Part shown: in pieces, positions 12,615-30,278 of the stretch
Layout of the letters: every line of letters starts with the position of its first letter
Numbering within the stretch: the stretch's first letter is position 1
Assembly: GCF_014117445.1 (NCBI RefSeq)
Contig: NZ_CP059851.1
Location: 2,480,001-2,544,000 of the forward strand
Length of the DNA: 64,000 nucleotides
Source of the DNA: Sandaracinobacteroides saxicola
GTDB lineage: Bacteria; Pseudomonadota; Alphaproteobacteria; Sphingomonadales; Sphingomonadaceae
Direction: 5' to 3'
The notes under the pieces: generated by a model
What the model was told of the DNA's origin: nothing
Database searches by the model: none
Seen by the model: only the letters and a program-made list of their open reading frames with translations
Made by a program: the position numbers and the translations under genes

Positions 12615-14060
12615 ATGACCGTTCGCGCCAACACCGTCCTGCTGTTCGGCGCGACCGGCGACCTGGCGCAGCGCATGCTGCTGCCCAGCCTTGCCGCGCT
12701 GCACGCCGATGGCCTGGTTGCGCGCGACATCCGCATCGTGGGGACGGCGCGCAGCGGGCTGGACGATGCCGGCTATCGCGATTTCGCGGCGGCGGCGCTG
12801 GCGAAATTCCTGCCCGCGGACCGCCAAGACAAGGCCGCGCTGGAGGCCTTCCTGGGCCGGTTGAGCTACCAGCCGCTCGATGCGACCGACCCGGCGGGCT
12901 TCGCGGCGCTGGCAGCGAAGGTGGGGGCGTTCGAGGGCGCGGTCGCGACCTTCCTGTCGACCGCGCCCAGCCTGTTCGAGCCGACCATCGCCGGGCTGGG
13001 CGCGCACGGCCTCGCCTGCGGCCAGTGCCGCATCGGGCTGGAAAAGCCGCTGGGCAGCGACCTGGCCAGCAGCCGGGCGATCAACGATGCCGTTGCCAGC
13101 GTGTTTCCGGAAAGCCGCACCTTCCGCATCGACCATTATCTGGGCAAGGAGACGGTGCAGAATTTGCTGGCGCTGCGCTTCGGCAACATCCTGTTCGAGC
13201 CGCTGTGGAACGCCCAGCATATCGAGCATGTGCAGATCACGGTGGCCGAGACCGTCGGGCTGGAAGGCCGCGTGGGATTCTATGATGGCGCCGGGGCGCT
13301 GCGCGACATGGTGCAGAACCATATGCTGCAACTGCTGGCGCTGGTGGCGATGGAGCCGCCGGCGCGGTTCGACGCGACGGCGATCCGCGACGAGAAGGTG
13401 AAGGTGCTGCGCAGCCTGCGGCCGCTGACGGCGGCGGACAGCGTGACCGGGCAATATGTGGCGGGTGCGGTCGATGGCGCCGCGGTGCCGGGCTATGCCG
13501 AGGAGCTGGGCAAGCCGTCGGACACGGAGACCTTCGTGGCGCTGAAGGCGCATGTCGACAACTGGCGCTGGAAGGGCGTGCCCTTTTTCCTGCGGACCGG
13601 GAAGCGCCTGCCGCAGCGGCGCACGGAGATCGTCATCCAGTTCCGCGCCGTGCCGCACAGCATCTTTGCCGAGCGCGGCGCGGTGGCCAAACCCAACCGG
13701 CTGATCATCGGCATCCAGCCCGACGAGAATGTCGGGCTGACGGTGATGGCGAAGGTGCCGGGCCTGGACCGGGAGGGCCTGCGGCTGCGGGAGGTACAGC
13801 TGGATATCACCACCCCGAACGCCTTTGCCGGGGCGCGGCGGCGGATCGCCTATGAACGCCTGCTGCTCGACCTGATCGAGGGCGATCCCACCTTGTTCGT
13901 GCGGCGCGACGAGGTGGAGGCACAGTGGAGCTGGGTGGACGCGATCCGGCGCGGCTGGGCCAGCGAAGGCCTGACGCCGCGAAGCTATACGGCGGGAAGC
14001 TGGGGGCCATCGGCGGCCATCGGCCTTGCTGAACGGGCGAATGTGAGCTGGCATGACTGA
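12615..14060 (+). CDS. zwf: Glucose-6-phosphate 1-dehydrogenase
   Basis: Oxidises glucose 6-phosphate to 6-phosphogluconolactone with NAD(P)+, the entry to the Entner-Doudoroff and oxidative pentose phosphate routes. The 481-residue protein has the nucleotide-binding GATGDLAQR (12-20), the EKPLG motif and the active-site signature [13 protein letters not shown]. It ends with a normal C-terminal domain. ATG 12615 follows AAAGGA. It overlaps edd by 8 bp. No pgl gene adjoins it; the lactonase step could fall to a distant gene or occur spontaneously. Confidence 0.97.
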
Positions 14061-15864
14061 GATGAACGCAACCGTGGCGCGGGTGACCGCGCGGATCGTC
14101 GAACGCTCGGCGCAGCGGCGCGGGCGTTATCTGGATTTCATCGCGCGGGAGCGGGACGCGGGGATCAACCGCAGCCGGCTGTCGTGCGGCAACCTGGCCC
14201 ATGCCTTTGCCGCCAGCGGCGAGGATAAGGCGGTGATCAGCGCCGCCCATGCGCCCAACCTGGGGATCGTGAGCGCTTTCAACGACATGCTGTCGGCGCA
14301 CCAGCCCTATGGGCGGTATCCGGAGGCGATGAAGCTGTTCGCGCGGGAAGTGGGGGCGACGGCGCAGGTGGCGGGCGGCGTGCCGGCGATGTGCGACGGC
14401 GTCACGCAGGGCCAGGTGGGGATGGAGCTTTCGCTGTTCAGCCGCGACGCCATCGCGATGGCGGCGGCGGTTAGCCTTTCCCACGCCATGTTCGAGGGCG
14501 TGGCGATGCTGGGCATCTGCGACAAGATCGTGCCGGGGCTGGTGATGGCGGCGCTGCGCTTTGGCCATCTGCCGACGATCTTTGTCCCCGCCGGGCCGAT
14601 GCCGAGCGGGCTGCCCAACAAGGAGAAGGCCCGCGTGCGGCAGTTGTTCGCGGAAGGGAAAGCGAGCCGCGCCGAGCTGCTGAAAGCGGAAGCGGCGAGC
14701 TATCACTCGCCGGGGACCTGCACCTTCTATGGCACGGCGAACAGCAACCAGATGATGATGGAGGTGATGGGCCTGCATGTGCCCGGCGCCGCGTTCGTCA
14801 ATCCCGGCAACAGCCTTCGCACCGAACTGACGCGGGCGGCGGTGCACCGGCTGGCGGCGATCAGCCTGGGCGGGTCCGATCCGCGACCCATCGGCGAGAT
14901 CATCGACGAGCGCGCGATCGTGAACGCCGCCGTGGGCCTGCTGGCGACCGGCGGCAGCACCAACCATGCCATCCACCTGCCGGCGATGGCGCGGGCGGCG
15001 GGGATCATCATCGACTGGGCCGATCTGGACGAGCTGTCAGGCGCGGTGCCGATGCTGGCGCGCATCTATCCCAACGGGCAGGGCGATGTGAACCATTTCC
15101 ACGCGGCGGGCGGCATGGGGTTCGTGATCCGCGAGCTGCTGGGCGCGGGGCTGCTGCATGATGTGAAGACGGTGTGGGAGGGCGGCCTGCATCCATATGC
15201 AGAGGAGCCGGGGATGGCGGGTGACGCGCTGCGCTGGGCCGCCGCGCCGGCGGCGAGCGGCGATGAGGCGATGCTGCGGCCGGTGGCGGCGCCGTTCATG
15301 GCGGATGGCGGCATGCGGCTGGTGACGGGCAATCTGGGTCGGGCGATCTTCAAGACCAGCGCAGTGGATGCCAGCCGCTGGACGGTGGAGGCGCCGGCGC
15401 GGGTGTTCCACGACCAGAATGAGGTGCTGAGCGCGTTCAAGGCCGGCGAACTGGACCGCGATGTGGTGGTGGTGGTGCGCTTCCAGGGGCCGCGCGCCAA
15501 CGGCATGCCGGAGCTGCATAAGCTGACGCCGGCGCTGGGGGTGTTGCAGGACAAGGGGTATAAGGTCGCGCTGGTCACCGATGGCCGGATGTCCGGCGCC
15601 AGCGGCAAGGTGCCGGCAGCGATCCACTGCACGCCGGAGGCCTGGGGCGGGGGGCCGCTGGCACGGCTGCGGGACGGCGATCCGGTGCGGCTGTGCGGCC
15701 ATGACGGCATGCTGACCACCAGCGCCGATCTGGCGGCGCGGGAGGCGGTGGCGAACCCCGCGGTGCATGACGGCACGGGCCGCGAACTGTTCGCGATGAT
15801 GCGCATGGGCGCCGATGGGGCGGAGCTTGGCGCCTCGGCGATGCTGGCGGCGGCGGGGCTGTGA
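14053..15864 (+). CDS. edd: 6-phosphogluconate dehydratase
   Basis: Dehydrates 6-phosphogluconate to 2-keto-3-deoxy-6-phosphogluconate, the first committed Entner-Doudoroff step. The 603-residue protein belongs to the IlvD/Edd family of Fe-S dehydratases: [58 protein letters not shown] and [18 protein letters not shown] are all present, including the cysteines expected to hold the cluster. It starts inside the end of zwf and its stop overlaps the GTG of glk as GTGA, so translation is coupled. Confidence 0.97.
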
Positions 15865-16829
15865 CGGGAATCGTCGCCGTCGATATCGGCGGCACGCATG
15901 CGCGCTTCGCGCTGGCGACGGTGGAGGGCGGCCGGGTGGTGGCGATGGCGCCGCCGGTGACGCTGAAGACCGCCGAGCATGCCAGTTTCCAGACCGCTTG
16001 GGAGGCGTTCGGCGCGATGCAGGCGGGGCCTTTGCCGCGCCTCGCCAGCATCGCGGTCGCCTGCCCGACGCAGGGCGAGGTGCTGAAGCTGACCAACAAC
16101 CCCTGGGTGATCCGGCCGGCGCTGATCCCGGAGAAGCTGCACCTCGACCGGTTCACGCTGGTGAATGATTTCGAGGCGATCGCCCATGCGGTCGCGCAGG
16201 CGCCGGCGGACGCCTTCGGCCCCCTGGCCGGGCCGGATGCGCCGCTGCCGGCGCGGGGCACGATCACCATATTGGGGCCGGGCACCGGGCTGGGCGTCGC
16301 CTCCCTGCTGAGGCAGGAGGGGCGTTATCATGTGCTGCCGTCCGAAGGCGGGCATGTGGATTTCGCGCCGCTGGACACGATCGAGGATGCCATCCTGGCG
16401 CATCTGCGGCGCGCCTTCCGGCGGGTGTCGGTGGAGCGGCTGCTCTCTGGCCCCGGGCTGGAGAATATCTATACAGCGCTGGCCGCGCTGGAGGGACGGG
16501 CGGTGCCGTCGCGCGACAACAGGGCATTGTGGACGGCGGCGATGGACGGCAGCGACAGCCTGGCGGCAGCCGCGCTGGACCGCTTCATGCTGACGCTGGG
16601 CAGCGTGGCGGGCGACCTGGCGCTGGCGCACGGCGCGGCCGGCGTGGTGGTGGCGGGCGGACTGGGGCAGCGGCTGGCGGGGCGCCTGCCGGGGTCGGGC
16701 TTTGCCGAGCGGTTCGCGGCGAAGGGCCGGTTCGAGAGCCGGATGGCGCAAATCCCGGTGCGGACGATCATGCTGGCGGAACCGGGGCTTTATGGCGCGG
16801 CGGCGGCGTTCGCGGTGGAGGCGGTATGA
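15861..16829 (+). CDS. glk: Glucokinase
   Basis: Phosphorylates free glucose with ATP. The 322-residue protein is of the bacterial Glk family (PF02685): [12 protein letters not shown] at the N-terminus (phosphate-binding), [23 protein letters not shown] and [10 protein letters not shown] near the active site. It starts with GTG, overlapping the edd stop as GTGA, and its own stop overlaps the ATG of eda as ATGA. Placement in the operon matches an organism that takes glucose in by symport, as the neighbouring SSS transporter suggests. Confidence 0.96.
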
Positions 16830-17446
16830 CGATCGACGAGATCATGATGGTGGCGCCGGTGATTCCGGTGCTGGTGATCGATGACGCGGCGCATGCGCGG
16901 CCGGTGGCCGAAGCCTTGGTGGCGGGCGGGCTGCCGGTGCTGGAGGTGACGCTGCGGACGCCGGCGGCGCTCGACGCGATGCGGGAAATGGCGCGCGTGC
17001 CGGGCGCCATCGTGGGCGCCGGCACGGTGCTGAACGCGCGCGACGTGGCGGCCTGTGCCGATGCGGGCGCGCGTTTCATCGTGTCGCCGGGGCTGACGGC
17101 GCCGCTGGTGGCGGCGGTGACGGAGAGCGGCATCCCCTTCCTGCCGGGGATCGCCACGGCGGGCGACATCATGCGCGGGCTGGACGCGGGCCTGACCCGA
17201 TTCAAATTCTTTCCGGCGGAGACCAGCGGCGGGTTGCCGGCGCTGAGGGCGCTGGCGGCGCCCTTCGGCATGGCGCGCTTCTGCCCGACGGGCGGCATCA
17301 CGGCGGCGAGCGCACCGGCCTGGCTGGCGGAACCTCACGTGAAATGCGTGGGCGGCAGCTGGATCGTGCCGCGCGGCGCGCCGGATGGGGCGGCGATCGA
17401 GGCGGCGGCGCGGGCGGCGAGTGCCCTCAGGCCAGCCGCGCCCTGA
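16826..17446 (+). CDS. eda: 2-keto-3-deoxy-6-phosphogluconate aldolase
   Basis: Class I aldolase that cleaves KDPG to pyruvate and glyceraldehyde 3-phosphate. The 206-residue protein has the catalytic pair expected for the family: E40 in VLEVTLRTP and the Schiff-base K127 in TRFKFFPAE. The phosphate-binding FCPTGGI and the C-terminal KCVGGSWIVP are also present. It is the last gene of the zwf-edd-glk-eda operon and its 3' end overlaps the convergent SMP-30 gene by 20 bp, leaving no room for a separate terminator. Confidence 0.97.
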   Translation: MTIDEIMMVAPVIPVLVIDDAAHARPVAEALVAGGLPVLEVTLRTPAALDAMREMARVPGAIVGAGTVLNARDVAACADAGARFIVSPGLTAPLVAAVTESGIPFLPGIATAGDIMRGLDAGLTRFKFFPAETSGGLPALRALAAPFGMARFCPTGGITAASAPAWLAEPHVKCVGGSWIVPRGAPDGAAIEAAARAASALRPAAP

Positions 17447-18325: not shown

Positions 18326-21300
18326 ATGCGGGCGCTGTCGTTGGCGGTTCTGGCGCTGGTCGGCATGGCCGCGGGTTGCGTGACGGCTGCCGTGCCCGCC
18401 GCCACCTCTGGCGTCCGCGCCAACCTGGCGGCGGATGTGCCCAAGGTGGTGCTGCAATTCGGTCATCCTTTCCGGGTGGACGCGGCACTGTGGGTGCCCG
18501 CCGAGCCGGGGAAGGCAAGCGACGACTGGAACGACTGGTTCGTGCTGACGGCGGACGCCAGCGACGGTTCGCTGATCCTGTGGGACCCGACCTGGACGCT
18601 GGTCTATGACCATCTGCGCCTGCCGCCGCTGGACCGGCAAGCGAATTTCACGCTGGACGCGGTCACCGCGATGACCCTGGCGCCGGGCGGGCGGCAGGTG
18701 ACGATCAGCGCGATCGGCAGCGGCACAGAGGGCGACAACCCCACTTTCGCGCGGCGCTTCACCTTTCGGCTGAACCTGGACACGCGGGTGGTGACGCGGG
18801 AGGCCGCCTCGGTGCCGCTGCCGGGGCTGGATGTGGACACGCTGAAGCCCGCGGCGCTGCCGGTCGGCCCCGGGGGCACGCGGCTGGAGCGCGACGGGAC
18901 GGGCGTGAAGATGTTGCCCGTGAAGGGCGATCCGGTGCTGTTGAAGGGCGTGGCGCGGGGCAAATATGCCGATGCCGCGCTGTCGCCCGATGGCACGCGG
19001 CTGGCGCGGGTGCTGTGGCTTTATGCCGGCAACACCACGCAGGTGGAGGTGTGGGACCTGGCGAGCGGCGAGGCGCTGCCGACCTTCATCAAGAAGGGCC
19101 GCTATGATGCGATCCGCTGGGTGAACGCCGACACCTATGTGCTGTTGGCCGATACTGATCCGAAGACCGGCGTGCCGCCGCTGCCGACGCTGCTCGTGGA
19201 TGCGGCCAGCGCCGGCAACCCCAAGGGCATCGCCGCCGGGACGGTGCCGGGGCGCTGCATGACGACGGTGATCCGCTTCAACGACGGCCAAACGATGGAC
19301 TATCAGCTGGCGGCGACCAACCCGGCGGCCTGTGGCGGGCCGGCGGGCGAGCCCGATGACATGTGGATGCTCGATTTCGACGGCAAGGGGGGCGCGACCT
19401 GGCGCCGGACGGAATTGCAGGGGATGCAGGACCGGCGCATCACCTCGATCACCGGCACGCCGGATGGCCGGGGCGTGGTGATTTCCACCCGGCCTCTGCG
19501 CCCGGTGAAGGGCGGTTTCGCGCCGCAGGTGGTGATGATCGACCTGAAGAGTGGCAAGGTGACCGACAGTTTCGACTTCGGTGACGCGGACGCATCGGTG
19601 ACACAACTGTTCGCCACCGCCGACAGCGCGATCCAGAAGAGCAGCCTGTCCTCCGACGGCAAATATCTGTTCTGGCATGCCCCGGGCGGGGTGCTGATGG
19701 TCGAGCTGGCGACGCGGGAGGTGCGGGGGATGGATACCGGCACCGACAATCCGCAGGTGATGGTGAGCGACGGCAAGACCTTGCTGGTGGGCGGGGTGGG
19801 GTATCGCAACCTCTATCGTTTCGACGTGGCGACGGTGCAGCCGGTGCTGCCGCCGATCCTGCTGACCGGCACGATCAGCGCCGATTACCTGCCCGACCGG
19901 CAGCTGTTCTGGGCGGTTTCGGACGATGGCGCGCTGAGAATGTGGGACCGGCGCGACGGATCGAAGCGGTTGAGCCTGTTCACCTTTCCCAACAATGGCT
20001 TCTTCGCGTCCATGCCCGACGGCCGTTATGACACCAACCTGACACCCGATACCGACTGGGTGCGCTGGATGCAGGCCGACCAGCCCTGGGTGTCGCTGCC
20101 GGCGAGCGCCTTCATGCGCAGCCATTATGATCCGGGGCTGGTGCGCAAGCTGTTCGACTGCAACGCCGGCGGCTGTGGCGCGGCGCTGCCGCCGATCCCG
20201 CCGGCGCCGGGGGTGACGCGGCTGTTTCCGTGGGTGACCATCACCGACGTGGCGAGCGGCGGGCCGGGGGTGGCGCGGGTGAGCCTGGAGTTCGCCGAGA
20301 ATGTCGATGGCGCGACGCGGTCGGGCGCGCATGACCTGCGGCTGTTCGTGGACGACCGGATGGTGCGCCGCGACCCCGATCCGGGCAGCGCCCCCGACGT
20401 GACCGACATCGAGGCCTGGCGGCGGGCGACGGCGCTGGCGGACGCCATGCCCGCCACGCTGCCGGCCGACGGGGAGGCGCCGACGGTGACGCGGACGATC
20501 GACGTGCCGATCCCGACCGATGGCCGCGAGGTGGCGCTGTCGGCCTATCTGTTCAACAGGGACCGCATCAAGGGCGAGACCGACCGCAAGGGCTGGAAAC
20601 CGCCGGCGGCGACACCGCGCCCGCGACGGCTGGTGGTGCTGGCGATCGGCGTGGACGCGACGCAGAACCGCGACTGGCGGCTGAGCTATGCCGCCGCCGA
20701 TGCCAAGGCGATCACCGGGCTGTTCGCGGGCGCGCCGGCGCAGGCCAAGCTGATGACGGTGATCACCAGCACCGACGCCCGCGACGCGGCGACGAAGGCC
20801 GTCATCCGCGCGGCGCTGCTGTCGCTGGCCGGGGCGGCGGGGGATGCCGAGCGCGCGGCGCTGGCGGCCGCCGGGGTGGACAGTGCCGGGCTGCCCGCCC
20901 TGACGCCCGACGACAGCCTGGTGATCAGCTGGTCGGGGCATGGCGACACCATCGGCGGACAATTTTATCTGGTGCCCTCTGACGGGGCGGTGGACGCGGC
21001 CGGCAGGCCACGGGCGGCGAGCTTCATCAGCAGCGCCGAGCTGACGGCCTGGCTGCGCGGGGTGCAGGCGGCGAATGTCGCCATCGTCATCGATGCCTGC
21101 CACAGCGCGGCGAGCGTGGCGGCGCAAGGGTTCAAGCCGGGGCCGATGGGGGATCCGGGGCTGGGGCAGCTCGCCTATGACAAGGGGTTCCGCATCCTGG
21201 CGGCGACGCAGGCGGACAATGTGGCGATGGAGGATGGCGCGCTGGGGCACGGCCTGCTGACCTGGGCGCTGACGCGCGATGCGCTGGTCATGGTGACGGC

Positions 21301-21577
21301 GGAGGACCGGCTGGACGCCAAGGAGCCGAAGACGGTCTATGGCGACCTGGACCGCGACGGCGCGCTCGACCTGGATGAATGGCTGCGTTTTGCCGTGCAG
21401 CGGCTGCCGACGCTGGCGCAGGAGGTGAAATCGGGGAAGCTGGCACTGAAAGCCAACAGCGCGGCGCGGCAGATCGTCAACCTGGGGGCGGCGGTGGCGC
21501 CGGTGGCGGCGCGGCCGATCCAGAAGCCATCGCTGTTCGATTTCACCCAGACCATGAGCGAGGTGCGGGTGCGGTGA
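18326..21577 (+). CDS. Beta-propeller/caspase-family lipoprotein with EF-hand loop
   Basis: A 1083-residue exported protein. The N-terminus has a short hydrophobic signal ending MAAGC, with Cys18 a possible lipidation site (the lipobox is weak, with Ala at -3). Residues about 40-640 read as WD40-like propeller repeats (for example DAALSPDGTRLARVLW and DGALRMWDRRDGSKRL). After a linker, a C14/caspase domain starts near 766: IGVDATQNRDWRLSYAAADA, catalytic His872 in SWSGHGDT and Cys925 in IDACHSAAS. Residues 1007-1018 form a textbook EF-hand loop, DLDRDGALDLDE. A strong AGGGGAGGAAGG precedes ATG 18326. It overlaps the next caspase gene as GTGA. Substrate unknown. Confidence 0.88.
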   Translation: MRALSLAVLALVGMAAGCVTAAVPAATSGVRANLAADVPKVVLQFGHPFRVDAALWVPAEPGKASDDWNDWFVLTADASDGSLILWDPTWTLVYDHLRLPPLDRQANFTLDAVTAMTLAPGGRQVTISAIGSGTEGDNPTFARRFTFRLNLDTRVVTREAASVPLPGLDVDTLKPAALPVGPGGTRLERDGTGVKMLPVKGDPVLLKGVARGKYADAALSPDGTRLARVLWLYAGNTTQVEVWDLASGEALPTFIKKGRYDAIRWVNADTYVLLADTDPKTGVPPLPTLLVDAASAGNPKGIAAGTVPGRCMTTVIRFNDGQTMDYQLAATNPAACGGPAGEPDDMWMLDFDGKGGATWRRTELQGMQDRRITSITGTPDGRGVVISTRPLRPVKGGFAPQVVMIDLKSGKVTDSFDFGDADASVTQLFATADSAIQKSSLSSDGKYLFWHAPGGVLMVELATREVRGMDTGTDNPQVMVSDGKTLLVGGVGYRNLYRFDVATVQPVLPPILLTGTISADYLPDRQLFWAVSDDGALRMWDRRDGSKRLSLFTFPNNGFFASMPDGRYDTNLTPDTDWVRWMQADQPWVSLPASAFMRSHYDPGLVRKLFDCNAGGCGAALPPIPPAPGVTRLFPWVTITDVASGGPGVARVSLEFAENVDGATRSGAHDLRLFVDDRMVRRDPDPGSAPDVTDIEAWRRATALADAMPATLPADGEAPTVTRTIDVPIPTDGREVALSAYLFNRDRIKGETDRKGWKPPAATPRPRRLVVLAIGVDATQNRDWRLSYAAADAKAITGLFAGAPAQAKLMTVITSTDARDAATKAVIRAALLSLAGAAGDAERAALAAAGVDSAGLPALTPDDSLVISWSGHGDTIGGQFYLVPSDGAVDAAGRPRAASFISSAELTAWLRGVQAANVAIVIDACHSAASVAAQGFKPGPMGDPGLGQLAYDKGFRILAATQADNVAMEDGALGHGLLTWALTRDALVMVTAEDRLDAKEPKTVYGDLDRDGALDLDEWLRFAVQRLPTLAQEVKSGKLALKANSAARQIVNLGAAVAPVAARPIQKPSLFDFTQTMSEVRVR

Positions 21578-23547
21578 GGCGGGCGGCGCTCCTTTCGCTG
21601 CTGTTGGCCGCCGTTCTGGCGGGGGGCGCGCGGGCGGCGACGGTGCGCAGCCTGTTCATCGGCATCGACGAGTATCGCTATTCCGCCGGCAAGCCGGGCA
21701 ACCAGGATCCGGGGTTCCGCGATCTGGCGGGCGCGGTCAACGACGTGCGGCTGGTGCGCGACGCGCTGGCGGGGCCGCGGTTCCGGCTGCCGCTGCCGCC
21801 GTTCGATCCGGCGGCGGGGTGCCTGGCGGAGAATGCGACCTCGATCACGCTGGTGAACGGCTGCGCGACGCGCGACGGCATTTTGCAGGCGTTGGCGCGG
21901 CAGATCAACGCGGCGGCGCCGGGGGATACGCTGCTCCTCTATTTCTCCGGGCATGGCAGCCAGACGCTGGACCGCACGCGGACGCAGCGCGGCGGCAAGA
22001 GCAGCACCATGCTGACGACCGACGCGCGCGGCGGCGGGGTGTGGGACATCATCGATACCGACCTGGGCCAGCTGATCGATGCGGCGACGGCGCGCGGCGT
22101 GAATGTGACCAGCCTGTTCGACAGCTGCAATTCCGGCACCGCGACGCGCGACCTGGCAGGGGGCGCGCTGCGCTCCGTCCCGGCGCTGGGGACGGGGGTC
22201 ACGGCGACGCCCGACCTGGCGCGCCGGCTGGGGATCGTGCCGGTGGCCGCGGCACCGGGGCGGCGGGTGCACCTGTCGGCGGCGGCGGATGGCGAGGCGG
22301 CGCGGGAGAATACGCTGGACGGTACGCGGCACGGCGCCTTCACGCGGGCGCTGGTGGCGGCGCTGGCCGAGCTGGACCGGCCGAGCCATGGCGAGCTGGC
22401 GGCGGACGTGCGGCGGCGGATGCTGCTGGCGGGGGACACGCAGACGCCGGGCGCGGAGGGCGCGCTGGGGGCGCTGTTCCTGGGCGGCGCGGCGCCGCGC
22501 GAGCGCGTGTTCGCGGTGACTCCGGCGGCGGGCGCGTCGCTGGAGATGCAGGGCGGCTCCCTGATGGGGGTGACCGAGGGCTCGCGCTTCGCGCTCTATC
22601 CGTCGCGGGCGGAGGCGGAAGCGGGCGGGGCGGCGCTGGGCGGGGGCGTGGTGCGCGCGGTGGGGGCGGCGACGGCGACGCTGCTTCTGGACAGGGCGCT
22701 GGCGGCGGCGCCGCCGCGGCTGGCGGCGCGGGAGGTGCGGCATGTGCCGGCGAGCCCGCCGATCCGGCTGCGGATCGATGGCGGCGAGGCCGGGGAGCGG
22801 GCGGCGATCGCGGCGGCGGTGGCGACGCTGGACAGTTTCACGCTGGCGGATCCGCCGGCCTGGGTGCTGGCGGCGGAGGGTGGCGGCTGGCAGCTGCGGG
22901 CGAGCGATGGCCGGGCGGTGGGCGGGCCGGTGCCGGCGGCGGCGGCGGCGGCGACGCTGGTGAAACTGTCGCGGCACCTGCTGCTGAGCGCGCTGGGCAC
23001 GCCGGATGGTGGCGATCCGGCGATCCTGACCTTCAACTATGCCTGTCGCGCGGACGATGGCAGTTTCACGCCGCTGCGCGATGCCGAGGGCAACATCCGC
23101 CGGCTGCCGCTGGTGGACAATATGGTGCAGGGGGCGCCGGGCGACCTGGTGCAGATCCGCTTCCAGAACAATGGCGACGCGCCGCGCTACCCCTCTCTGC
23201 TGGCGCTGGGGGAGGACCTGTCGGTGACGCCGCTGCGGCAGGAGGAACCCATCGCGCCGGGCAGCGCGCTGGTGCATCCGATCGCGCTGGCGGGCGAAGG
23301 GCGCGATGCCATCCTGTTCCTGTTGACCGAGGCGCCCATCGACCTCAGCGCCCTGCAGCAGGACCCGGTGCCGGGCGCGCCGAGCCAGGCGCGCGACCTC
23401 GGCTCGCCGCTGGAGCGGCTGCTGGCGGCGGCCAACCGTGGCGCGCGCGCGCTGGAGGTGCCGCGCACCGGCGGCTGGACCGCGCGCGTGCAGCCGATCG
23501 CCACCCGACCCCCGACGAAGGACCGACCGACATGCCCAAGTTCCTGA
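21574..23547 (+). CDS. Second caspase-family (C14) exported protein
   Basis: A 657-residue protein starting with GTG inside the stop of the preceding gene. A signal peptide (RRAALLSLLLAAVLAGG then ARAA) predicts export. The caspase fold follows at once: SLFIGIDEYRYS, DLAGAVNDVRLVRDAL, His127 in LYFSGHGSQT and Cys185 in FDSCNSGTATRD, the usual His/Cys dyad. About residues 245-290 resemble the family tail in which HGAFTRAL closes the fold. The second half (about 300-657) is Ala/Gly-rich and ends in a beta-rich module with TFNYACRADDGSFTPLRD and IAPGSALVHPI; such modules occur after caspase domains in proteobacteria, function unknown. It overlaps the trypsin gene by 16 bp. Confidence 0.88.
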   Translation: MRRAALLSLLLAAVLAGGARAATVRSLFIGIDEYRYSAGKPGNQDPGFRDLAGAVNDVRLVRDALAGPRFRLPLPPFDPAAGCLAENATSITLVNGCATRDGILQALARQINAAAPGDTLLLYFSGHGSQTLDRTRTQRGGKSSTMLTTDARGGGVWDIIDTDLGQLIDAATARGVNVTSLFDSCNSGTATRDLAGGALRSVPALGTGVTATPDLARRLGIVPVAAAPGRRVHLSAAADGEAARENTLDGTRHGAFTRALVAALAELDRPSHGELAADVRRRMLLAGDTQTPGAEGALGALFLGGAAPRERVFAVTPAAGASLEMQGGSLMGVTEGSRFALYPSRAEAEAGGAALGGGVVRAVGAATATLLLDRALAAAPPRLAAREVRHVPASPPIRLRIDGGEAGERAAIAAAVATLDSFTLADPPAWVLAAEGGGWQLRASDGRAVGGPVPAAAAAATLVKLSRHLLLSALGTPDGGDPAILTFNYACRADDGSFTPLRDAEGNIRRLPLVDNMVQGAPGDLVQIRFQNNGDAPRYPSLLALGEDLSVTPLRQEEPIAPGSALVHPIALAGEGRDAILFLLTEAPIDLSALQQDPVPGAPSQARDLGSPLERLLAAANRGARALEVPRTGGWTARVQPIATRPPTKDRPTCPSS

Positions 23548-24446
23548 GCCTGCCGCTGCTGGCATTGCTGTTGACGGCGGCCGGCGATCCGCCGCTCACC
23601 CCGCCCGCGCCCTGCCCGGCGCCGGCGGCGGCCGAGGAGGAGGATGCCAGCCGCATCGTGGGCGGCGATCCGGCGAAATGGGGGGATGCGCCGTGGCAGG
23701 TCTCGGTGGGCTATGCCGGCCCGCTGATCAACGCGCGGGTGGCGCCGGGGGCGCGCGCGGCGCCGATGGGGCAGCGGGCGCATTTCTGCGGCGGCAGCCT
23801 GATCGCGCCGAACTGGGTGCTGACCGCCGGGCATTGCGTGGTGGTGGACGGGCGGGTGGTGGTGGCGCCGGGGCTGCTGCTGGTACGCTATGGCGGGTTG
23901 CGGACCGGCGAGCCGATGCCGGAGGCGCGGGTGAAGCGGGTGGTGCTGCATCCGGACTATCTCACCTCGCCGTCGCAGAACGACGTGGCGCTGCTTGAGC
24001 TGGCGACGCCGGTGAAGCCGGTGACGGTGGCGGGGGTGAAGCGGGTGGCGTTCGTGGGGCTGGCGGGGGATCCCGGCGCGCCGGTGCTGCCGCCGGTGAT
24101 GGCGGGGCTGCGGGTGAGCGGCTGGGGCAAGCTGGCGAGCAGTGACCGGGCGATGGCGCCCGATCTGCAGATCATCAGCATCGACGGCCTGTCGCAGGGG
24201 GCGTGCCGGGCGAAATGGCCGGACCTGCTGGACGTGGAGCTGTGCGCCGGCGGCGGCGACAAGGACAGCTGCCAGGGCGACAGCGGCGGGCCGATGGTGT
24301 GGCAGGACGCCGACGACCGCTGGTGGCAGGTGGGCGTGGTGAGCCGTGGCGGCAAGTGCGGCACCAAGGGTCTGCCGGGCATCTATGCGCGGGTGAGCAG
24401 CTTCCAGCCGTGGATCAGGGCGCAGACGGGGCCGGCGGTGCGGTAG
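23532..24446 (+). CDS. Trypsin-like serine protease zymogen (S1 family)
   Basis: A 304-residue S1 peptidase with a signal peptide (about 1-17). A short pro-region ends DASR and the mature enzyme begins IVGG at residue 42, so cleavage after Arg41 should activate it as in animal trypsin. The triad is His101 (LTAGHC), Asp151 (SQNDVALLEL) and Ser251 (GDSGGP). Asp245, six residues before Ser251, is the S1-pocket aspartate that gives Arg/Lys specificity. Cysteine pairs in FCGGS...AGHC and DSCQGDSGG fit the fold. Translation starts inside the preceding caspase gene. A 12-bp hairpin follows the stop by one base. Confidence 0.93.
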   Translation: MPKFLSLPLLALLLTAAGDPPLTPPAPCPAPAAAEEEDASRIVGGDPAKWGDAPWQVSVGYAGPLINARVAPGARAAPMGQRAHFCGGSLIAPNWVLTAGHCVVVDGRVVVAPGLLLVRYGGLRTGEPMPEARVKRVVLHPDYLTSPSQNDVALLELATPVKPVTVAGVKRVAFVGLAGDPGAPVLPPVMAGLRVSGWGKLASSDRAMAPDLQIISIDGLSQGACRAKWPDLLDVELCAGGGDKDSCQGDSGGPMVWQDADDRWWQVGVVSRGGKCGTKGLPGIYARVSSFQPWIRAQTGPAVR

Positions 24447-24475
24447 GACCCGGGGGGCGGGCGGCCCCCCGGGTC
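24447..24475. terminator. Perfect 12-bp hairpin between convergent genes
   Basis: GACCCGGGGGGC (24447-24458) pairs perfectly with GCCCCCCGGGTC (24464-24475) around a 5-base loop. It starts one base after the trypsin stop and ends 8 bases before the end of the convergent lipoprotein gene. There is no T-run on either side, so it is a GC-rich bidirectional hairpin rather than a textbook intrinsic terminator. Confidence 0.7.
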
Positions 24476-24483
24476 GCCGGCGC

Positions 24484-24765
24484 TTATTTGGTGTTGGCGT
24501 CCTTGCGGTCGTCGCTGGCGTCCATCGTGGTGTTGGCGTCCTTGCGGTCGCCCGAGGCCTCGGCGGGCGCGGCGCCGGCGGCATCGGCCGCGGGGGTCTC
24601 GGCGGCGGGCATGGCGTCGGTGGCGGGCGCGTCGGCAGCGACCACATCGGTCGGCGCGGCGGCGGAGGCGTCAGCGGCGGGCGCGGCGGCTTCCTCTTTC
24701 TTCTGGCCGCAGGCGGCGAGCGCGAGGGTGGCGGAGGCGAGCAGCAGCATCGAGAAACGGGTCAT
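24484..24765 (-). CDS. Small Ala-rich lipoprotein with 13-residue repeat
   Basis: A 93-residue protein with a lipoprotein signal: MTRFSMLLLASATLALAAC, Cys19 in a good LAAC lipobox, then GQKKEE. The mature part is almost only Ala, Asp, Pro, Glu and Thr and is likely disordered. The end carries a 13-residue repeat, seen twice as DRKDANT; at DNA level a perfect 22-bp direct repeat lies at 24490-24511 and 24529-24550. An ATG at 24843 would add a non-conserved leader before the signal, so 24765 is preferred; GGGGGA lies upstream. Function is not recognisable. Confidence 0.75.
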   Translation of the reverse strand: MTRFSMLLLASATLALAACGQKKEEAAAPAADASAAAPTDVVAADAPATDAMPAAETPAADAAGAAPAEASGDRKDANTTMDASDDRKDANTK

Positions 24766-24860: not shown

Positions 24861-26678
24861 TCAGGCGGGCGAGAGCTGGCGCAGCAGGGCGCGGAAGCGC
24901 GGTTCGGCGCGCAGCGGATCGAGCAGGGGATCGTTGCGCAGGTTGAGGATGCCGGGGTCGCGCGCGGCGTAGGCGGCCTCCAGCCGGGTGAGCGCGCCGG
25001 CGCGGTCGCCGCGCTGCGCCAGCACCTGCGCCACCTGATAGCCGGTGGTGTCGTCCTGGCGGAGTGCCGCGAAGGCGGCGTCCGACGCCGCGGCATTGCC
25101 CAGGCGGGCTTCGACGATGGCGAGGCCGGTGAGGCGCGCCCAGCCGGTGGTTTCGGCGGCATAGGCGGCGCGCGCCTGGGGCAGGCGGCCGAGCATGAGG
25201 AGCGCGTCGCCGCGATAGGCATGGCCGGAGGCGAGTTTCGGCGACAGGCGCAGCGCCTCGTCGAGCCGGGGCAGCGCGTCGGCATAGCGCCGGGCCTGGT
25301 AGAGCGCGGTGCCGAGCGCGCGCCAGGCACGCGGGTTGACGGGGTCGAGCGCGACGGCGCGGTTGAGCGCCGCCAGGCCCTTGCTGAGGTCGCCGACGCG
25401 GACGTTGAAGATGCCGTAGCGGATGAGGACATCGGCGTCCGGCCCGGCGCGATAGGCGCGTTCATAGGCGGCGGCGGCACCGCGCACGTCGAGGCGCCCG
25501 CGTTCGAGGACATAGGCGAGCGCCGCCTGGGTGTCCGCCTGGTCGGGCTTCAGGCTGACCGCCTTCAGCGCCGCGGCCAGCGCCGCCTCGTTGGTGCGCG
25601 CGGCCTGGACGGCGGTTTCGAACTGGCCGGCGATGGCGCTGAGCGTCGCGGCGCGGCCGGCGTGGGCGGCGGCATAGGCCGGATCGGCGGCGATGGCGGC
25701 ATCATATTGCGCCAGCGCGGCGCGGAAGGTGGCCTCGTCGCCGGACTGGGCGAACAGCTGCGCGCCGCGCAGCAGCGCGTCATGCGCCGCGATGGAGGCG
25801 GTGCCGCGGGCGGCCAGGCGGGCGGCGTCGGCGGGGAGCAGCGTGACCTTCAGCGCTTCGGTGACGATCTTCGCGATGTCGGTCTGGACGGCAAACACAT
25901 CCTTCAGCTCGCGGTCGTAGGTCTGCGACCAGCGTTCATAGCCCGTCTTCGCCTCCACGAGCTGCGCGCTGATGCGCACGACGTTGCCGGCGCGGCGGAC
26001 GCTGCCTTCGAGGATGAAGGCGACGCCGAGTTTGCCGCCGATGTCGGCGGCATTGGCGTTGCCGGTGCGGAAGGCGTTGGAGGAGGTGCGCGCCGCGACC
26101 TGGAGGCCCGACACGGCGGCGAGCGCGCTGCGCAGCTCCTCCGCCATGCCATCCGAGAAGAAAGCCTGCCCGGGGTCGCCGGACAGGTTTTCAAAGGGCA
26201 GGACGGCGACGCTGTTGGGTGGCGCGGTGCGGGCGGCAACGGGGGCGGCCGCGGCGCTCGCCGCCGGCGGGGCGGCCTCTTTCGCCGCATGCTTTTCATC
26301 CTTGGGGACGAAGATGTAGAGCAGCAGCGCGCCCAATGCGAGGATGCCGACGATCAGCGGCAGGGGATCGAAGCCGCCGACGGCGCCATGGCCGCCATGG
26401 CCGCCGTGGTGCGCGTTCTCTGACGTCGAGGCCGGCTCGCTGTCGGGCAGGTGCGGGAACCAGCCGTCGGAGGTGAAGCGGAACTTCCAGCTGAGCGCCA
26501 GCACCAGCGGGAAGCCGGCGACCAGCGCCATGAACAGGAATTTCGCGGCGCTGTGCGGCAGTTCGAGGATGAGGGTGAGGACGTGCCCGACTTCGAGCAC
26601 CAGCCAGCCGACCACCAGATAGGTGGCGGCGGCGCGCCACACGCCGCGCCGTCTTGCCTCTGCCAGCAGGCTTGCCAA
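24861..26678 (-). CDS. TolB-like/TPR membrane protein
   Basis: A 605-residue inner-membrane protein of a family often found in sphingomonads and xanthomonads and often labelled adenylate-cyclase-like. The N-terminus (SLLAEARRRGVWRAAATYLV) is characteristic. Membrane segments are predicted at about 16-38, 46-64 and 105-124, with a His/Gly-rich loop at 89-98. A TolB-amino-terminal/FlgO-like domain starts at SVAVLPFENLSGDPGQAFF (156 onward) and continues through FILEGSVRRAGNVVRISAQL. The rest, about 330-605, is tetratricopeptide-like helices. No cyclase catalytic domain is present. The start is TTG, chosen because the family N-terminus begins there. Probably a scaffold or sensor; role unknown. 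Confidence 0.82.
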   Translation of the reverse strand: MASLLAEARRRGVWRAAATYLVVGWLVLEVGHVLTLILELPHSAAKFLFMALVAGFPLVLALSWKFRFTSDGWFPHLPDSEPASTSENAHHGGHGGHGAVGGFDPLPLIVGILALGALLLYIFVPKDEKHAAKEAAPPAASAAAAPVAARTAPPNSVAVLPFENLSGDPGQAFFSDGMAEELRSALAAVSGLQVAARTSSNAFRTGNANAADIGGKLGVAFILEGSVRRAGNVVRISAQLVEAKTGYERWSQTYDRELKDVFAVQTDIAKIVTEALKVTLLPADAARLAARGTASIAAHDALLRGAQLFAQSGDEATFRAALAQYDAAIAADPAYAAAHAGRAATLSAIAGQFETAVQAARTNEAALAAALKAVSLKPDQADTQAALAYVLERGRLDVRGAAAAYERAYRAGPDADVLIRYGIFNVRVGDLSKGLAALNRAVALDPVNPRAWRALGTALYQARRYADALPRLDEALRLSPKLASGHAYRGDALLMLGRLPQARAAYAAETTGWARLTGLAIVEARLGNAAASDAAFAALRQDDTTGYQVAQVLAQRGDRAGALTRLEAAYAARDPGILNLRNDPLLDPLRAEPRFRALLRQLSPA

Positions 26679-27568: not shown

Positions 27569-27713
27569 AAATGCTGTCCGAGAAATTGTTCAGGCCGTGG
27601 CGAAAATGACGATGTGCGAGCACCGGAGCGCAGCGTGCTTGAGGCACGTGAGCACCGGAGTGCAGCACATCGGCATTTGCAGCCCGGGCTGGGCGATTTA
27701 TCGGACAGCATTT
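27569..27713. repeat. Long imperfect palindromic element between phaC and phaZ
   Basis: The ends are a perfect 13-bp inverted repeat, AAATGCTGTCCGA (27569-27581) and TCGGACAGCATTT (27701-27713), and similarity between the two arms continues inward for about 60-70 bases with mismatches. The core has two direct copies of GAGCACCGGAGNGCAG (27618-27633 and 27650-27665) flanking a small hairpin CGTGC-TTGAG-GCACG (27634-27648). The last base of the element is the first base of the phaC stop codon as read on the plus strand. No protein reading in it is convincing. It could fold as a large RNA stem in the phaC-phaZ transcript or be a copy of a dispersed palindromic repeat. Confidence 0.75.
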
Positions 27714-29404
27714 CAGCCAAACACATATTCGCCGGGGGCGGGGCCAACGGGCTTGAAGGCCTTGTTGCCGATGGTCTTGGGCGCGGGTTTTTCGGCGCCG
27801 GCGCGGGCCTTCAGCCATTCGATCCAGAGCGGCCACCAGCTGCCGGCGACTTCCTTTGCGGTCTTCAGCCAGGCGTCGGGCGTGGGTGGGGGGAAACCGT
27901 CGGCGCGGTAATATTTGGCTTTCGGATTGCCCGGCGGGTTGAGGATGGCCTGGATGTGGCCGGATTGGGAGAGGATGAACTCGACATTCTTCGAGCCGAA
28001 CAGCTGCGTGGTGCGGTAGCAGGCCTTCCACGGAGTGATATGGTCGGTGACGCCGCCCAGGATGAACAGGTCGCAGGTGACGTTGCGGCCATCGAGCTTG
28101 TGGCCGGCGACGGTGACTTCGCCCTGATGCTCGAACGGCTGGGTTTCGTAGAGGCTGAGATAGTCGCCGTGCAGCGCGCCCGTAAGGTTGGTGGCGTCGT
28201 TGTTCCAGAACAGGATGTCGAACGCCGGCGGATCCTCGCCGTGGAGATAATTGTTGACGACATAGTTCCAGACGAGGTCGTTCGGGCGCAGCCAGGCGAA
28301 GGTGCGGGCGAGCGACGAGCCCTCCAATATGCCTTTTTCCGCCGAGCGCTTGCGGGCGAGCGCCAGGCCATGTTCGCTGACGAGGGCGCCGGCGTCGCTG
28401 TCGTCGTTCTTCGGGTTGAGCACGCAGACCATGAAGGTGGCGCTGTTGACGCGGGTGTCGCCGCGGGCGGCGAGTTTCGACAGGAGCGTGGCGGTGGTGA
28501 TGCCGCCGGAGCAGGCGCCCGACACATTGACCTTGTCGCTGCCGGTGACGGCGCAGACGGTGTCGATCGCCTGGATGATGGCATCGACATAGGTTTCGAG
28601 GCCCCAGTCGCGGTGTTCGATCGTGGGGTTGCGCCAGCTGATCAGGAAGGTCTGCATGCCGTTCATGACCTGGAAGCGCATCATGCTTTTTTCCGGCGTC
28701 AGGTCGTTGATGTAGGCCTTGTTGATCTGCGGCGGGATGATGAGGAGGGGGATTTCGTGCACCTTTTCGGTGGCGGGGTGGTATTGGATCAGCTCCATGA
28801 TCGGCTCGCGCAGGATGACGCTGCCCGGCGTGGTGGCGAGGTTTTCGCCGACCTTGAAGGGCCGCTTGTCCACCTGGGAGACGATGCCGTCATTCTGGGT
28901 CAGGTCGACATAGGCGTTCTGCAGGCCGCGCAGCAGCGATTGCCCGCCGGTTTCCATCGCTTTCTTGATGGCGGAGGGGTTGCCGATCAGGGTGTTGGTG
29001 GGGGCCAGCGAATCGACGATCATGCCGGCGATGAAGCGGACGCGGGTGCGTTCCAGCTCGTCCATCTCGACCGCGTCGAGCCATTGTTTCACGCCGCGTT
29101 CGGCGGCGAGATAATATTGCATCGACCATTTGTAGAGCGGGTTCTGCTGCCAGGCCGGGTCGCCGAAGCGCTTGTCCTTCGCGTCCGGGCGAAGCTCGGA
29201 CTGGTTGGTGAGGATGTTGCCGACTTCGGAGGCGAAATCGGAGGCGACCTTCAGGGTGACGCCGGGCTGGGTCATGGTGGTGCGCAGCATCATGCCGACG
29301 GTGCCGAGGAAATCCTCCCGCGCGAGGCCGACGAGCGGGTTGAGGGCGACGGACGCCTCGCCCTGGAGCTCGACGCCTTTTGCCGAATCCGCCTTTTTCG
29401 CCAT
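27713..29404 (-). CDS. phaC: Class II poly(3-hydroxyalkanoate) synthase
   Basis: A 563-residue PHA polymerase that joins (R)-3-hydroxyacyl-CoA into storage polyester. The lipase-like box is SGACSGGITT with catalytic Cys298; the acid lies in LGGVTDHITPWK and the histidine in SQSGHIQAILNPPGNPK. WLRPNDLVWNYVVNNYL and FDILFWNNDATNL match the Pseudomonas class II (medium-chain-length) enzymes better than the class I alphaproteobacterial type. ATG 29404 is preceded by GGGGGAGAGGA. It is transcribed toward phaZ. The mcl-type pair is noteworthy in this background and could be horizontally acquired. Confidence 0.94.
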   Translation of the reverse strand: MAKKADSAKGVELQGEASVALNPLVGLAREDFLGTVGMMLRTTMTQPGVTLKVASDFASEVGNILTNQSELRPDAKDKRFGDPAWQQNPLYKWSMQYYLAAERGVKQWLDAVEMDELERTRVRFIAGMIVDSLAPTNTLIGNPSAIKKAMETGGQSLLRGLQNAYVDLTQNDGIVSQVDKRPFKVGENLATTPGSVILREPIMELIQYHPATEKVHEIPLLIIPPQINKAYINDLTPEKSMMRFQVMNGMQTFLISWRNPTIEHRDWGLETYVDAIIQAIDTVCAVTGSDKVNVSGACSGGITTATLLSKLAARGDTRVNSATFMVCVLNPKNDDSDAGALVSEHGLALARKRSAEKGILEGSSLARTFAWLRPNDLVWNYVVNNYLHGEDPPAFDILFWNNDATNLTGALHGDYLSLYETQPFEHQGEVTVAGHKLDGRNVTCDLFILGGVTDHITPWKACYRTTQLFGSKNVEFILSQSGHIQAILNPPGNPKAKYYRADGFPPPTPDAWLKTAKEVAGSWWPLWIEWLKARAGAEKPAPKTIGNKAFKPVGPAPGEYVFG

Positions 29405-29512
29405 TCGATCCTCTCCCCCGTTTCTTTGTTGGCGGAGGGCATAGCATGGCGGCTTGCCGACGCCAATCGGCGCGGGGTTGCAACCGACGGCGTCTCGGCT
29501 AGTTGAACGTCC
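29405..29512. promoter_or_regulatory. Divergent promoter region phaC / terC
   Basis: This 108-bp gap separates phaC (minus) from terC (plus), so it must hold both promoters. The phaC Shine-Dalgarno lies at its left edge. No clear sigma-70 elements or operator palindromes were picked out by eye. Confidence 0.35.
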
Positions 29513-30160
29513 ATGGATTTCTCCTTTCTTTCGGACCCCGCGGCCTGGACCGCGCTGGGCAAGGTGGTGTTGATCGACATCGCGCTCGCCGGTGACAATG
29601 CGATCGTGGTGGGGGCGCTGGCGGCGGGGCTGCCGCCGGAGCAGCGCCGAAAGGTGATCCTGATCGGGGTGATCGCTGCGCTGGTGCTGCGGGTGGCGTT
29701 CGCGCTGGTGGTGACGCAGCTGCTGGGCATCGTGGGCCTGCAGCTGGCGGGCGGGCTGCTGCTGCTGTGGGTGGCGTGGAAGATGTACCGCGAGGTGGCG
29801 ACGGGGGCGACGCACGCGCATGCCGAGGATGGGGTCAGCGTGCTGGCGGGTGGCGTGGCGGAAGGGGGGCCGAAGCCGGCGAAGAGTTTCTGGAGCGCGG
29901 CCTGGGCGGTGGCGATCGCTGATGTTTCCATGAGCCTGGACAATGTGCTGGCGGTGGCGGGCGCGGCGCGGGATCATCCGGAGGTGATGGTGTTCGGCCT
30001 GATCCTGTCGATCGCGCTGATGGGTTTGGCGGCGAATGTGATCGCGCGCTATATCGAGAAATATCGCTGGATCGCCTGGGTGGGGGTGGCGGTGATCGTT
30101 TATGTGGCGATCGACATGATCATCAGCGGTGGCGGCGAGGTGGTGCCGCTGCTTGGTTAA
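29513..30160 (+). CDS. TerC/YjbE-family integral membrane protein
   Basis: A 215-residue polytopic protein of the TerC family. Two internal repeats each carry an acidic membrane motif: LIDIALAGDNAIVVGALAAG in the first half and IADVSMSLDNVLAVAGAA in the second, the DN pairs being typical metal-ion ligands. Family members are linked to tellurite resistance and to manganese export into the exported-protein pathway. A hydrophilic loop with HAHAED sits between the halves. It is divergent from phaC; a weak hairpin follows at 30162-30181. Confidence 0.9.
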   Translation: MDFSFLSDPAAWTALGKVVLIDIALAGDNAIVVGALAAGLPPEQRRKVILIGVIAALVLRVAFALVVTQLLGIVGLQLAGGLLLLWVAWKMYREVATGATHAHAEDGVSVLAGGVAEGGPKPAKSFWSAAWAVAIADVSMSLDNVLAVAGAARDHPEVMVFGLILSIALMGLAANVIARYIEKYRWIAWVGVAVIVYVAIDMIISGGGEVVPLLG

Positions 30161-30161
30161 C

Positions 30162-30181
30162 CTGTGGCGGGAAGGCCACAG
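30162..30181. terminator. Weak hairpin after terC
   Basis: CTGTGGC (30162-30168) pairs with GCCACAG (30175-30181) around a 6-base loop, just after the terC stop. There is no T-tract, so termination is only plausible. Confidence 0.4.
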
Positions 30182-30278
30182 ATGTAGCTGATTCGGCAAC
30201 AGGAATCGCCGGGTCCCCTTGTGGGATTCACGGCGCTGTGATGGATTCCCGCCATAACCAGAACAAGCGGGAGGCTTC

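Follow-up and report, generated by a model that had tools for sequence, protein, structure and literature searches.

What might two caspase-family proteins and a trypsin zymogen, all with export-like starts, be doing in one operon? A preliminary description of a 64,000-nucleotide stretch of the Sandaracinobacteroides saxicola genome (contig NZ_CP059851.1; hereafter the window) pointed out three overlapping open reading frames, which we call ORF1, ORF2, and TRY (positions 18326–24446 together). It suggested a periplasmic protease cascade that might serve conflict, signalling, or cell lysis. We propose that the trio and two genes that follow it form a conserved envelope relay: the signal would pass from the caspases to the trypsin, then to a lipoprotein, and then to a membrane protein with tetratricopeptide repeats (TPRs) and, in most relatives, a TIR domain. 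We give this reading a probability of roughly 0.42. It builds on the operon, the conserved catalytic and activation residues, the signal-like starts, and the linkage to the TPR/TIR and lipoprotein genes.

All three genes are on the forward strand. The GTG start codon of ORF2 sits inside a GTGA that is shared with the end of ORF1, and ORF2 and TRY overlap by 16 bases, exactly as first described. ORF1 and ORF2 are the only two matches to the caspase family C14 in this genome, and TRY is one of five trypsin-family matches. (Domain limits in all of the proteins rest on profile matches.)

The preliminary description had proposed a search for the same gene order across genomes, and the order does recur. 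Scanning named genomes with an alignment of ORF1 yielded 46 loci (L numbers label loci and G numbers label genomes). The order ORF1-ORF2-trypsin is found in 27 of these, from alpha- and gammaproteobacteria, and also in L201. The carriers include Sandarakinorhabdus, Glacieibacterium, Novosphingobium, Parasphingorhabdus, Sphingomonas, and other Sphingomonadales, as well as Lysobacter prati and Arenimonas from the Lysobacterales; the rest are classified only as Alphaproteobacteria or Proteobacteria. L047 and L056 are counted as trio carriers here, and a later filter overlooked them. Among the other 19 loci, 14 lack this order in the available sequence; in L046, L049, L063, L070, and L075, the sequence ends inside the last family gene or less than 0.5 kb after it. 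The trypsin is missing from L068, where ORF1 and an ORF2-like gene are present, and several loci have two tandem copies of ORF1. In the window's own family, ORF1 is present in 5 of 149 genomes (E ≤ 1e-10). ORF2 has matches in 10 of the 149, and the five strong ones are in the same five genomes. The gene order is identical in the other four of these genomes (by tblastn and ORF reading). Across the order, ORF1 is present in 6 of 296 genomes. Because the gene order is conserved, we rejected the idea that the three genes are chance neighbors.

Both ORF1 and ORF2 belong to C14 by profile match and by their His-Cys dyads. Against a Pfam cut-off of 21.4 bits, ORF2 scores 48.3 bits, and ORF1 is barely above it, with 22.5 bits. 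The dyad of ORF1 (His872/Cys925) is kept in all 32 filled rows of an alignment of 33 trio sequences, including the window's. The dyad of ORF2 (His127/Cys185), whose caspase domain is N-terminal, is kept in all 25 filled rows of 26. We also considered that ORF2 might be a pseudo-caspase, and rejected this because its dyad is intact. Neither protein is of the EACC1 type: the NCBIfam model caspase_w_EACC1 gives 26.8 and 39.4 bits, with a cut-off of 140. The DUF4384 domain was detected in 10 of 26 members of the ORF2 family, and the window's ORF2 is not among them.

What would these caspases cut? Acidic residues of the S1 type, as assigned by motif, are invariant in the alignments (Asp792 and Asp923 in ORF1; Asp57 and Asp183 in ORF2), and they correspond to Asp95 and Asp211 of TbMCA2. 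In TbMCA2, those are S1 residues, and the specificity is for a basic P1 residue (accessible parts of PMC4357240 and PMC6426788). These residues fit a specificity of both ORF1 and ORF2 for Arg or Lys.

ORF1 has further features that might suit a sensor. Models for β-propellers or WD40 repeats match it weakly in the window and clearly in many relatives. After the caspase domain comes an EF-hand-like loop, DLDRDGALDLDE, whose first Asp and last Glu are almost invariant among the aligned ORF1 proteins; Pfam's EF-hand model scores under its cut-off in the window's ORF1. Dependence on calcium, for which a test had been suggested, is hinted at by this sequence. Near the C-terminus, Q1066, P1068, F1071, and F1073 are invariant across 31 aligned ORF1 proteins; this tail is a possible docking or sorting signal.

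TRY scores 152.8 bits against Pfam's trypsin model. Its triad is His101/Asp151/Ser251, its S1 residue is Asp245 (corresponding to Asp189), and its zymogen site is Arg41-Ile, in an Arg-IVGG context; these features place it among the S1A trypsins. In 26 aligned trio trypsins, the His, Asp, and Ser of the triad are kept in 25/25, 26/26, and 25/25 filled rows. The preliminary description had named the two dyads, the triad, the S1 aspartate, and the activation site, and had asked if the catalytic residues are conserved in homologs; all of these residues are present, and the catalytic residues do not vary in any filled column for ORF1, ORF2, or the trypsin.

It had also assigned export signals to all three proteins, and by eye, the starts are indeed signal-like. 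That of ORF2 is classic, that of TRY is hydrophobic, and residues 14–18 of ORF1 (MAAGC) form a weak lipobox, so that ORF1 is probably an exported lipoprotein. Most readable relatives from the trio loci have starts that look signal-like by eye (with start codons chosen by a script). Lipoboxes such as LLAAGC (ORF1 of L042), VLLCGC (ORF2 of L079), and VVLAGC (trypsin of L048) are present in many of the starts of all three proteins in the Lysobacterales loci and in L047, L058, and L062.

If the caspases activate the trypsin, then the activation site of the trypsin should suit them. The activation residue is Arg in 31/31 readable caspase-linked trypsins but in only 11/25 readable caspase-less trypsins (Fisher p = 8e-7). 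These residues were called by pattern, which could be read in 54 of 85 trypsins (29/32 caspase-linked and 25/53 caspase-less); L060 and L065 were entered by hand, L055 was left out because its frame is broken, and L192 repeats L062. The L040 trypsin, which is truncated by a contig end and has no readable residue 189, was tallied under "other189". Three caspase-linked trypsins have lost Asp189 (L045, L060, and L065, with Ser, Thr, and Ala); cleavage after Arg is expected to be inefficient for them, but they retain Arg at the activation site. Conversely, in caspase-less loci, 5 of the 9 readable trypsins with Asp189 have Tyr, Pro, or Ser at the activation site. The retention of Arg despite the loss of Asp189, along with the conserved S1 aspartates of the caspases, fits activation by Arg-specific caspases. 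The activation site seems to correlate more closely with the presence of the caspases than with the pocket of the trypsin itself, although by independent pairs this is not significant.

Alternatively, the trypsin might activate itself or be activated by another protease, and the caspases might be parallel effectors of one stress programme, with no cascade. With both Asp189 and an Arg activation site, TRY could autoactivate, and those 11 caspase-less trypsins have the Arg without any caspase nearby. The three trypsins that lost Asp189 and the five that kept it without a suitable activation residue argue the other way, and on balance we consider this alternative rather unlikely. The cascade of the preliminary description stands in part: the invariant activation Arg and the conserved aspartates of the caspases speak for it, and for the activation step itself, self-activation is another possible route.

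The C-terminal region of ORF2 also matches part of 12 of the 53 caspase-less trypsins (E ≤ 1e-3; six were aligned); in at least 11 of the 12, the matching part precedes the trypsin domain. By this similarity, one domain is joined to a caspase in the trio and to a trypsin in some other loci.

The preliminary description ended too soon: partner genes follow the trio. Among 28 trio loci, including the window, 23 have at least 2.3 kb of sequence past the trypsin, and the other five have less than 1 kb. A gene for a TPR protein lies past the trypsin in 16 of the 23, convergent in 14 (including the window) and co-directional in two (L044 and L076). In 16/16 of these loci, a gene for a small lipoprotein follows the TPR gene on the same strand. 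Most of these TPR proteins (14/16) have the BB-loop and SxWxxxE-type motifs of a TIR domain, with Phe instead of Trp in L065 and L077, and Pfam's TIR_2 was confirmed in all three trio-linked proteins that were tested. In the TPR proteins of the window and L045, three hydrophobic segments stand in place of the TIR domain, which is absent from the L130 protein as well; the window's protein resembles the TIR-TPR family (TIR plus TPRs) in its TPRs only. All five genes are consecutive and share a strand in L201; the same holds in L204 for the genes of ORF2, the trypsin, the TIR-TPR protein, and the lipoprotein. Pairs of ORF2 and trypsin genes adjoin TPR genes at L183:9338-12378 and L204:8300-11478, with no ORF1 match in the available sequence. 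In G071, the TPR and lipoprotein genes open one contig (L130:19-2157) and the trio is near the end of another (L021), so these genes may adjoin in the real chromosome.

The TIR-TPR family is found in 21 of 149 genomes of the window's family (E ≤ 1e-60) and in 65 of 396 genomes of the order (E ≤ 1e-80). A class-wide search at E ≤ 1e-80, with at most three candidates scored per genome, found it in 2 of 385 genomes, both from the window's family. Of the first 20 TIR-TPR stretches, eight without the trio (L115–L122) have an adjoining trypsin, two (L112 and L113) have a three-gene operon, and ten have neither. In 40 of 52 further TIR-TPR loci, a trypsin lies no more than 4 kb away; 36 of the 40 have no trio caspases, and 4 have caspases of the ORF1 or ORF2 type. 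The chance rate for a nearby trypsin is about 1.5% per locus, a rough figure based on the window's genome and its five trypsin matches; because the loci are related, we do not give a p value.

The operons of L112 (10624-17758) and L113 (3239-10202) are convergent with the TIR-TPR gene. They encode a caspase-hydrolase-like protein, a CHAT protein, and an nSTAND1 nucleoside triphosphatase (NTPase), with the domains from Pfam in L112 and judged by the similar layout in L113. Each operon is likely a conflict system. Also, a protein of about 650 residues with a VTGHR-type start recurs near pairs of TIR-TPR and trypsin genes (six loci). DUF4231 gives weak matches, under the cut-off, to the three of these proteins that were tested, and we take the family to be SLOG-like.

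What could the trypsin act on? The tails of many partner lipoproteins consist of tandem repeats, each unit with a single Arg, and in many of these the Arg follows Asp or Glu. For instance, TGEDDR is repeated nine times in L062, DERTGP seven times in L120, and TGDETR six times in L201; L042, L048, L056, and L079 have TGTVERTGPEEQ-like units, and L043 and L067 have ASTDR and ANTDR units. The window's lipoprotein has two exact DRKDANT units, and because their DNA is identical too, they are uninformative on selection. In other loci, the units of a tail differ by more synonymous than nonsynonymous codon-pair changes: 111/0 in L062, 12/0 in L067, 22/4 in L043, 38/12 in L048, 28/11 in L050, 32/14 in L079, 45/28 in L042, and 12/9 in L056 (L045 was left out). 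This excess suggests constraint on the peptide.

The tails also vary with residue 189 of the linked trypsin. Among loci with Asp189, 18 of 28 have a tail with two or more Asp/Glu-Arg pairs, compared with none of the 27 other loci (Fisher p = 1e-7). The criterion was set on the first 26 loci; on the 29 later loci, the numbers are 4/9 and 0/20 (p = 0.005). Three loci are left out of this count: L183, where a cytochrome c had been picked as the lipoprotein; L164, with residue 189 unaligned; and L192, a duplicate of L062. L053 and L041 are counted with lipoproteins that come from a different contig or the edge of one (L123 and L130), and L043 is counted although its TPR gene falls outside the contig. 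With classes drawn post hoc, Gln189 goes with NP[IV]- or SPI-type tails in 16/16 cases, and Phe189 goes with TDQ, NDQ, or TDH tails in 4/4. Tails with TDQ or NDQ repeats or TDH ends, and no Arg, are found in L189, L190, L193, and L195 (with Phe189 trypsins) and in L114 (no trypsin matched). We view the activation residue and the covariation of the tails with residue 189 as leads for the relay, short of proof.

We propose that the relay would work as follows. The two exported caspases, specific for Arg or Lys, would sense a signal in the envelope; ORF1, with its propeller and EF-hand-like loop, would be the likely sensor. The caspases would then cut the exported TRY zymogen after Arg41, and the active trypsin would cut the Arg-containing tail of the partner lipoprotein. 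The partner membrane protein, whose hydropathy suggests periplasmic TPRs and a cytosolic TIR domain, would read the cut lipoprotein and signal inward. In relatives with a TIR domain, the output may be of the NADase type; the window's protein would have to act without one. The cutting order, the lipoprotein as the substrate, the reading by TPRs, and the TIR output are the parts of this scheme that we infer. Of the three roles that were first suggested, we favor signalling across the membrane, possibly in immunity, because a TPR/TIR protein and a repeat-tailed lipoprotein stand beside the trio; we saw nothing that points toward lysis, though lysis genes were not searched for.

Several observations weigh against the relay. 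The window's own TPR protein has no TIR domain, and the sole TIR_2 match in its genome lies elsewhere. Seven of the 23 trio loci with room have no adjacent TPR gene. Twelve of the 52 further TIR-TPR loci have no trypsin within 4 kb, and L114, L123–L129, and L131 have a TIR-TPR gene with neither a trypsin nor a trio match in the available sequence. As for activation, 28 of the 53 caspase-less trypsins have no readable activation site, and a trypsin with Asp189 could activate itself at Arg. The ORF2-like part is missing from 41 of these 53 trypsins, and Pfam's DUF4384 was not found in the four that were scanned. Some tails do not match their trypsins: L206 and L208 combine Asp189 with an NP tail; L041, L044, L076, L077, and L171 have Asp189 but no Arg repeats; and the tails of L045 (Ser189) and L117 (Gly189) carry some Arg. 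Finally, both covariations are mostly at the level of clades. Well-supported branches yield just 4 and 2 independent pairs, so the phylogenetic tests have little power; the sign tests are not significant, and with a looser criterion for the tails (at least two Arg), on average 0.5 pairs are concordant and 1.0 are opposed.

Alternatively, common descent alone might have kept the window's TPR and lipoprotein genes next to the trio; the TIR domain would have been lost, and the trio would act alone there. The TPR proteins of L045 and L130 lack the TIR domain too, and seven trio loci have no adjacent TPR gene. Yet two genomes of the latter kind, G339 and G341, have a TIR-TPR gene some 9 and 5 kb past the trypsin, with both genes on one contig, and G020 carries TIR-TPR and lipoprotein genes on a different contig from the trio. 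Also, the two exact DRKDANT repeats persist in the window's lipoprotein, and synteny is maintained. We consider this explanation quite improbable.

Another alternative is that the locus is a quality-control or protein-degrading set of the envelope, with a housekeeping role rather than an alarm or immune one. All three proteases have signal-like starts, the window's neighboring genes look by eye like ordinary metabolic genes, and the ORF2-like part is not general (12 of the 53 caspase-less trypsins), all of which would be compatible with housekeeping. On the other hand, the distribution of ORF1 in the family and the order is sporadic, the trio is linked to a TIR protein with an SxWxxxE-type motif, and the conflict-type operon of L112 adjoins a TIR-TPR gene. 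We judge a housekeeping role to be unlikely.

Table 1. Positions of the features discussed (window coordinates, unless a locus is named).
Feature	Position	Strand	Description
ORF1	18326..21577	+	β-propeller/WD40-like N-terminal part, C14 caspase, EF-hand-like loop, C-terminal PSLFDF motif (conserved)
EF-hand-like loop of ORF1	21344..21379	+	residues 1007–1018, DLDRDGALDLDE
ORF2	21574..23547	+	C14 caspase with a DUF4384-like C-terminal region
TRY	23532..24446	+	trypsin zymogen with a signal-like start
Arg41 codon of TRY	23652..23654	+	P1 of the putative activation site SR|IVGG, from sequence; conserved in relatives
GC-rich hairpin	24447..24475	.	between convergent operons; −36.9 kcal/mol (51 nt folded), z −3.2
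Small lipoprotein	24484..24765	-	lipobox LAAC; tail with two DRKDANT copies
Membrane TPR protein	24861..26678	-	three hydrophobic segments, then TPRs; TIR-TPR family, TIR domain absent
VTGHR-type protein	L116:4632-6533, L117:4923-6890, L119:10838-12916		near TIR-TPR/trypsin pairs
VTGHR-type protein	L120:11059-13071, L121:13412-15412, L122:6534-8498		near TIR-TPR/trypsin pairs

The hairpin between the convergent operons is probably a two-way terminator; it is not among the results of a scan for terminators with T-runs. A promoter scan at the locus found nothing. A search of plasmids with ORF2 matched 71 records, none of which covers 80% of ORF2, so there is no sign of the trio moving on known plasmids. 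On either side of the locus (14053-17446 and 27713-30634), the window appears by eye to be ordinary chromosome, with Entner-Doudoroff-like genes (edd, glucokinase, and eda) and a polyhydroxyalkanoate synthase.

Is this a known system? PADLOC assigns its generic "caspase" model to ORF1, ORF2, and the caspase of L112. It gives very weak matches of TRY to Avs1b and LmuA, weak matches of the L067 TIR-TPR protein to models that contain TIR, and a weak match of the L112 NTPase to mad8. In Thoeris-type systems, a TIR protein signals to a caspase through a nucleotide. Those systems have TIR and caspase in one pathway, as here, but in our proposal the TIR domain would act after the exported proteases and across the membrane.

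What follows about published systems refers to the accessible text of each paper. The closest architecture that we found in print is that of the Rhizobiales pseudo-orthocaspases, which combine trypsin-like, p20, and DUF4384 domains, as here (PMC6426788). There, the three are fused in one protein and p20 has a Gln-Cys dyad. In the trio, the proteins are encoded separately, their starts are signal-like, and the caspase dyads are His-Cys: His127 and Cys185 are invariant in the 26 aligned ORF2 proteins. The locus also has a WD40-type caspase, along with the lipoprotein and the TPR/TIR partner.

Effectors of the caspase, trypsin, and TIR kinds are also frequent in bacterial conflict systems that are centered on NTPases and effector-associated adaptor domains (PMC7159879, PMC8195603, and also PMC10907252). 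Some of the systems in PMC7159879 and PMC8195603 have membrane segments, and "signal peptide" occurs in neither accessible text. They share kinds of effector domains with the trio, but the trio's proteases appear from their sequences to be exported. Among the ORFs of 15–28 kb in the window, we noticed no NTPase gene by eye, such as would mark a MoxR-vWA, iSTAND, or CARD-NLR system (there was no gene-by-gene scan). The canu pairs of caspase-nuclease and trypsin-nuclease (PMC12799240) have a protease in an operon with its effector, which is a nuclease. In the LypABC CARD-NLR systems (PMC13236601), proteases are in operons with the NLR-type complexes that they activate or need. These systems share with the trio a protease operon, but their nuclease or NLR effectors have no counterpart that we noticed beside the trio; for instance, no nuclease of the metallo-β-lactamase fold was noticed by eye beside the caspases in 15–28 kb. 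"Periplasm" occurs in the accessible text of neither paper.

A survey of metacaspases from 2012 (PMC3501461) reported probable signal peptides, WD40-linked caspases, multi-caspase operons, and 23 operons with proteolysis domains. The word trypsin is absent from its accessible main text, which mentions an operon for protease and protease inhibition in four Rhizobium strains. The accessible passages of PMC10907252 and PMC9904509 do not describe the gene set. More broadly, in the open-access literature, as far as its text was accessible, we recognized no description of an exported caspase pair with a trypsin, a repeat lipoprotein, and a TIR-TPR protein, though one may be in print elsewhere. By sequence, the parts are members of known families, and the module seems to be a new combination.

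We also speculate that these genes represent a new class of extracytoplasmic immune or alarm system, with caspases, trypsin, lipoprotein repeats, and a TPR receptor with a cytosolic TIR domain acting in turn; this is a doubtful proposal, clearly less probable than the relay itself. Freed peptides or the cut lipoprotein would engage the periplasmic TPRs, and the trypsin's pocket and the lipoprotein's tail would co-evolve as private protease-substrate codes. The codes would be Asp189 with Arg repeats, Phe189 with TDQ, NDQ, or TDH tails, and Gln189 with NPIGP-type tails.

The relay predicts that TRY is activated at Arg41 and that the lipoprotein repeats are trimmed. In the accessible literature, some bacterial immune modules with caspases, trypsins, and TIR domains have membrane segments, but we saw no account of them as sets of exported proteases. 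If our proposal is correct, then in these bacteria an event at the cell surface could trigger a cascade of proteolysis whose result is relayed into the cell, in a layout that resembles the protease cascades and receptor signalling of animals.

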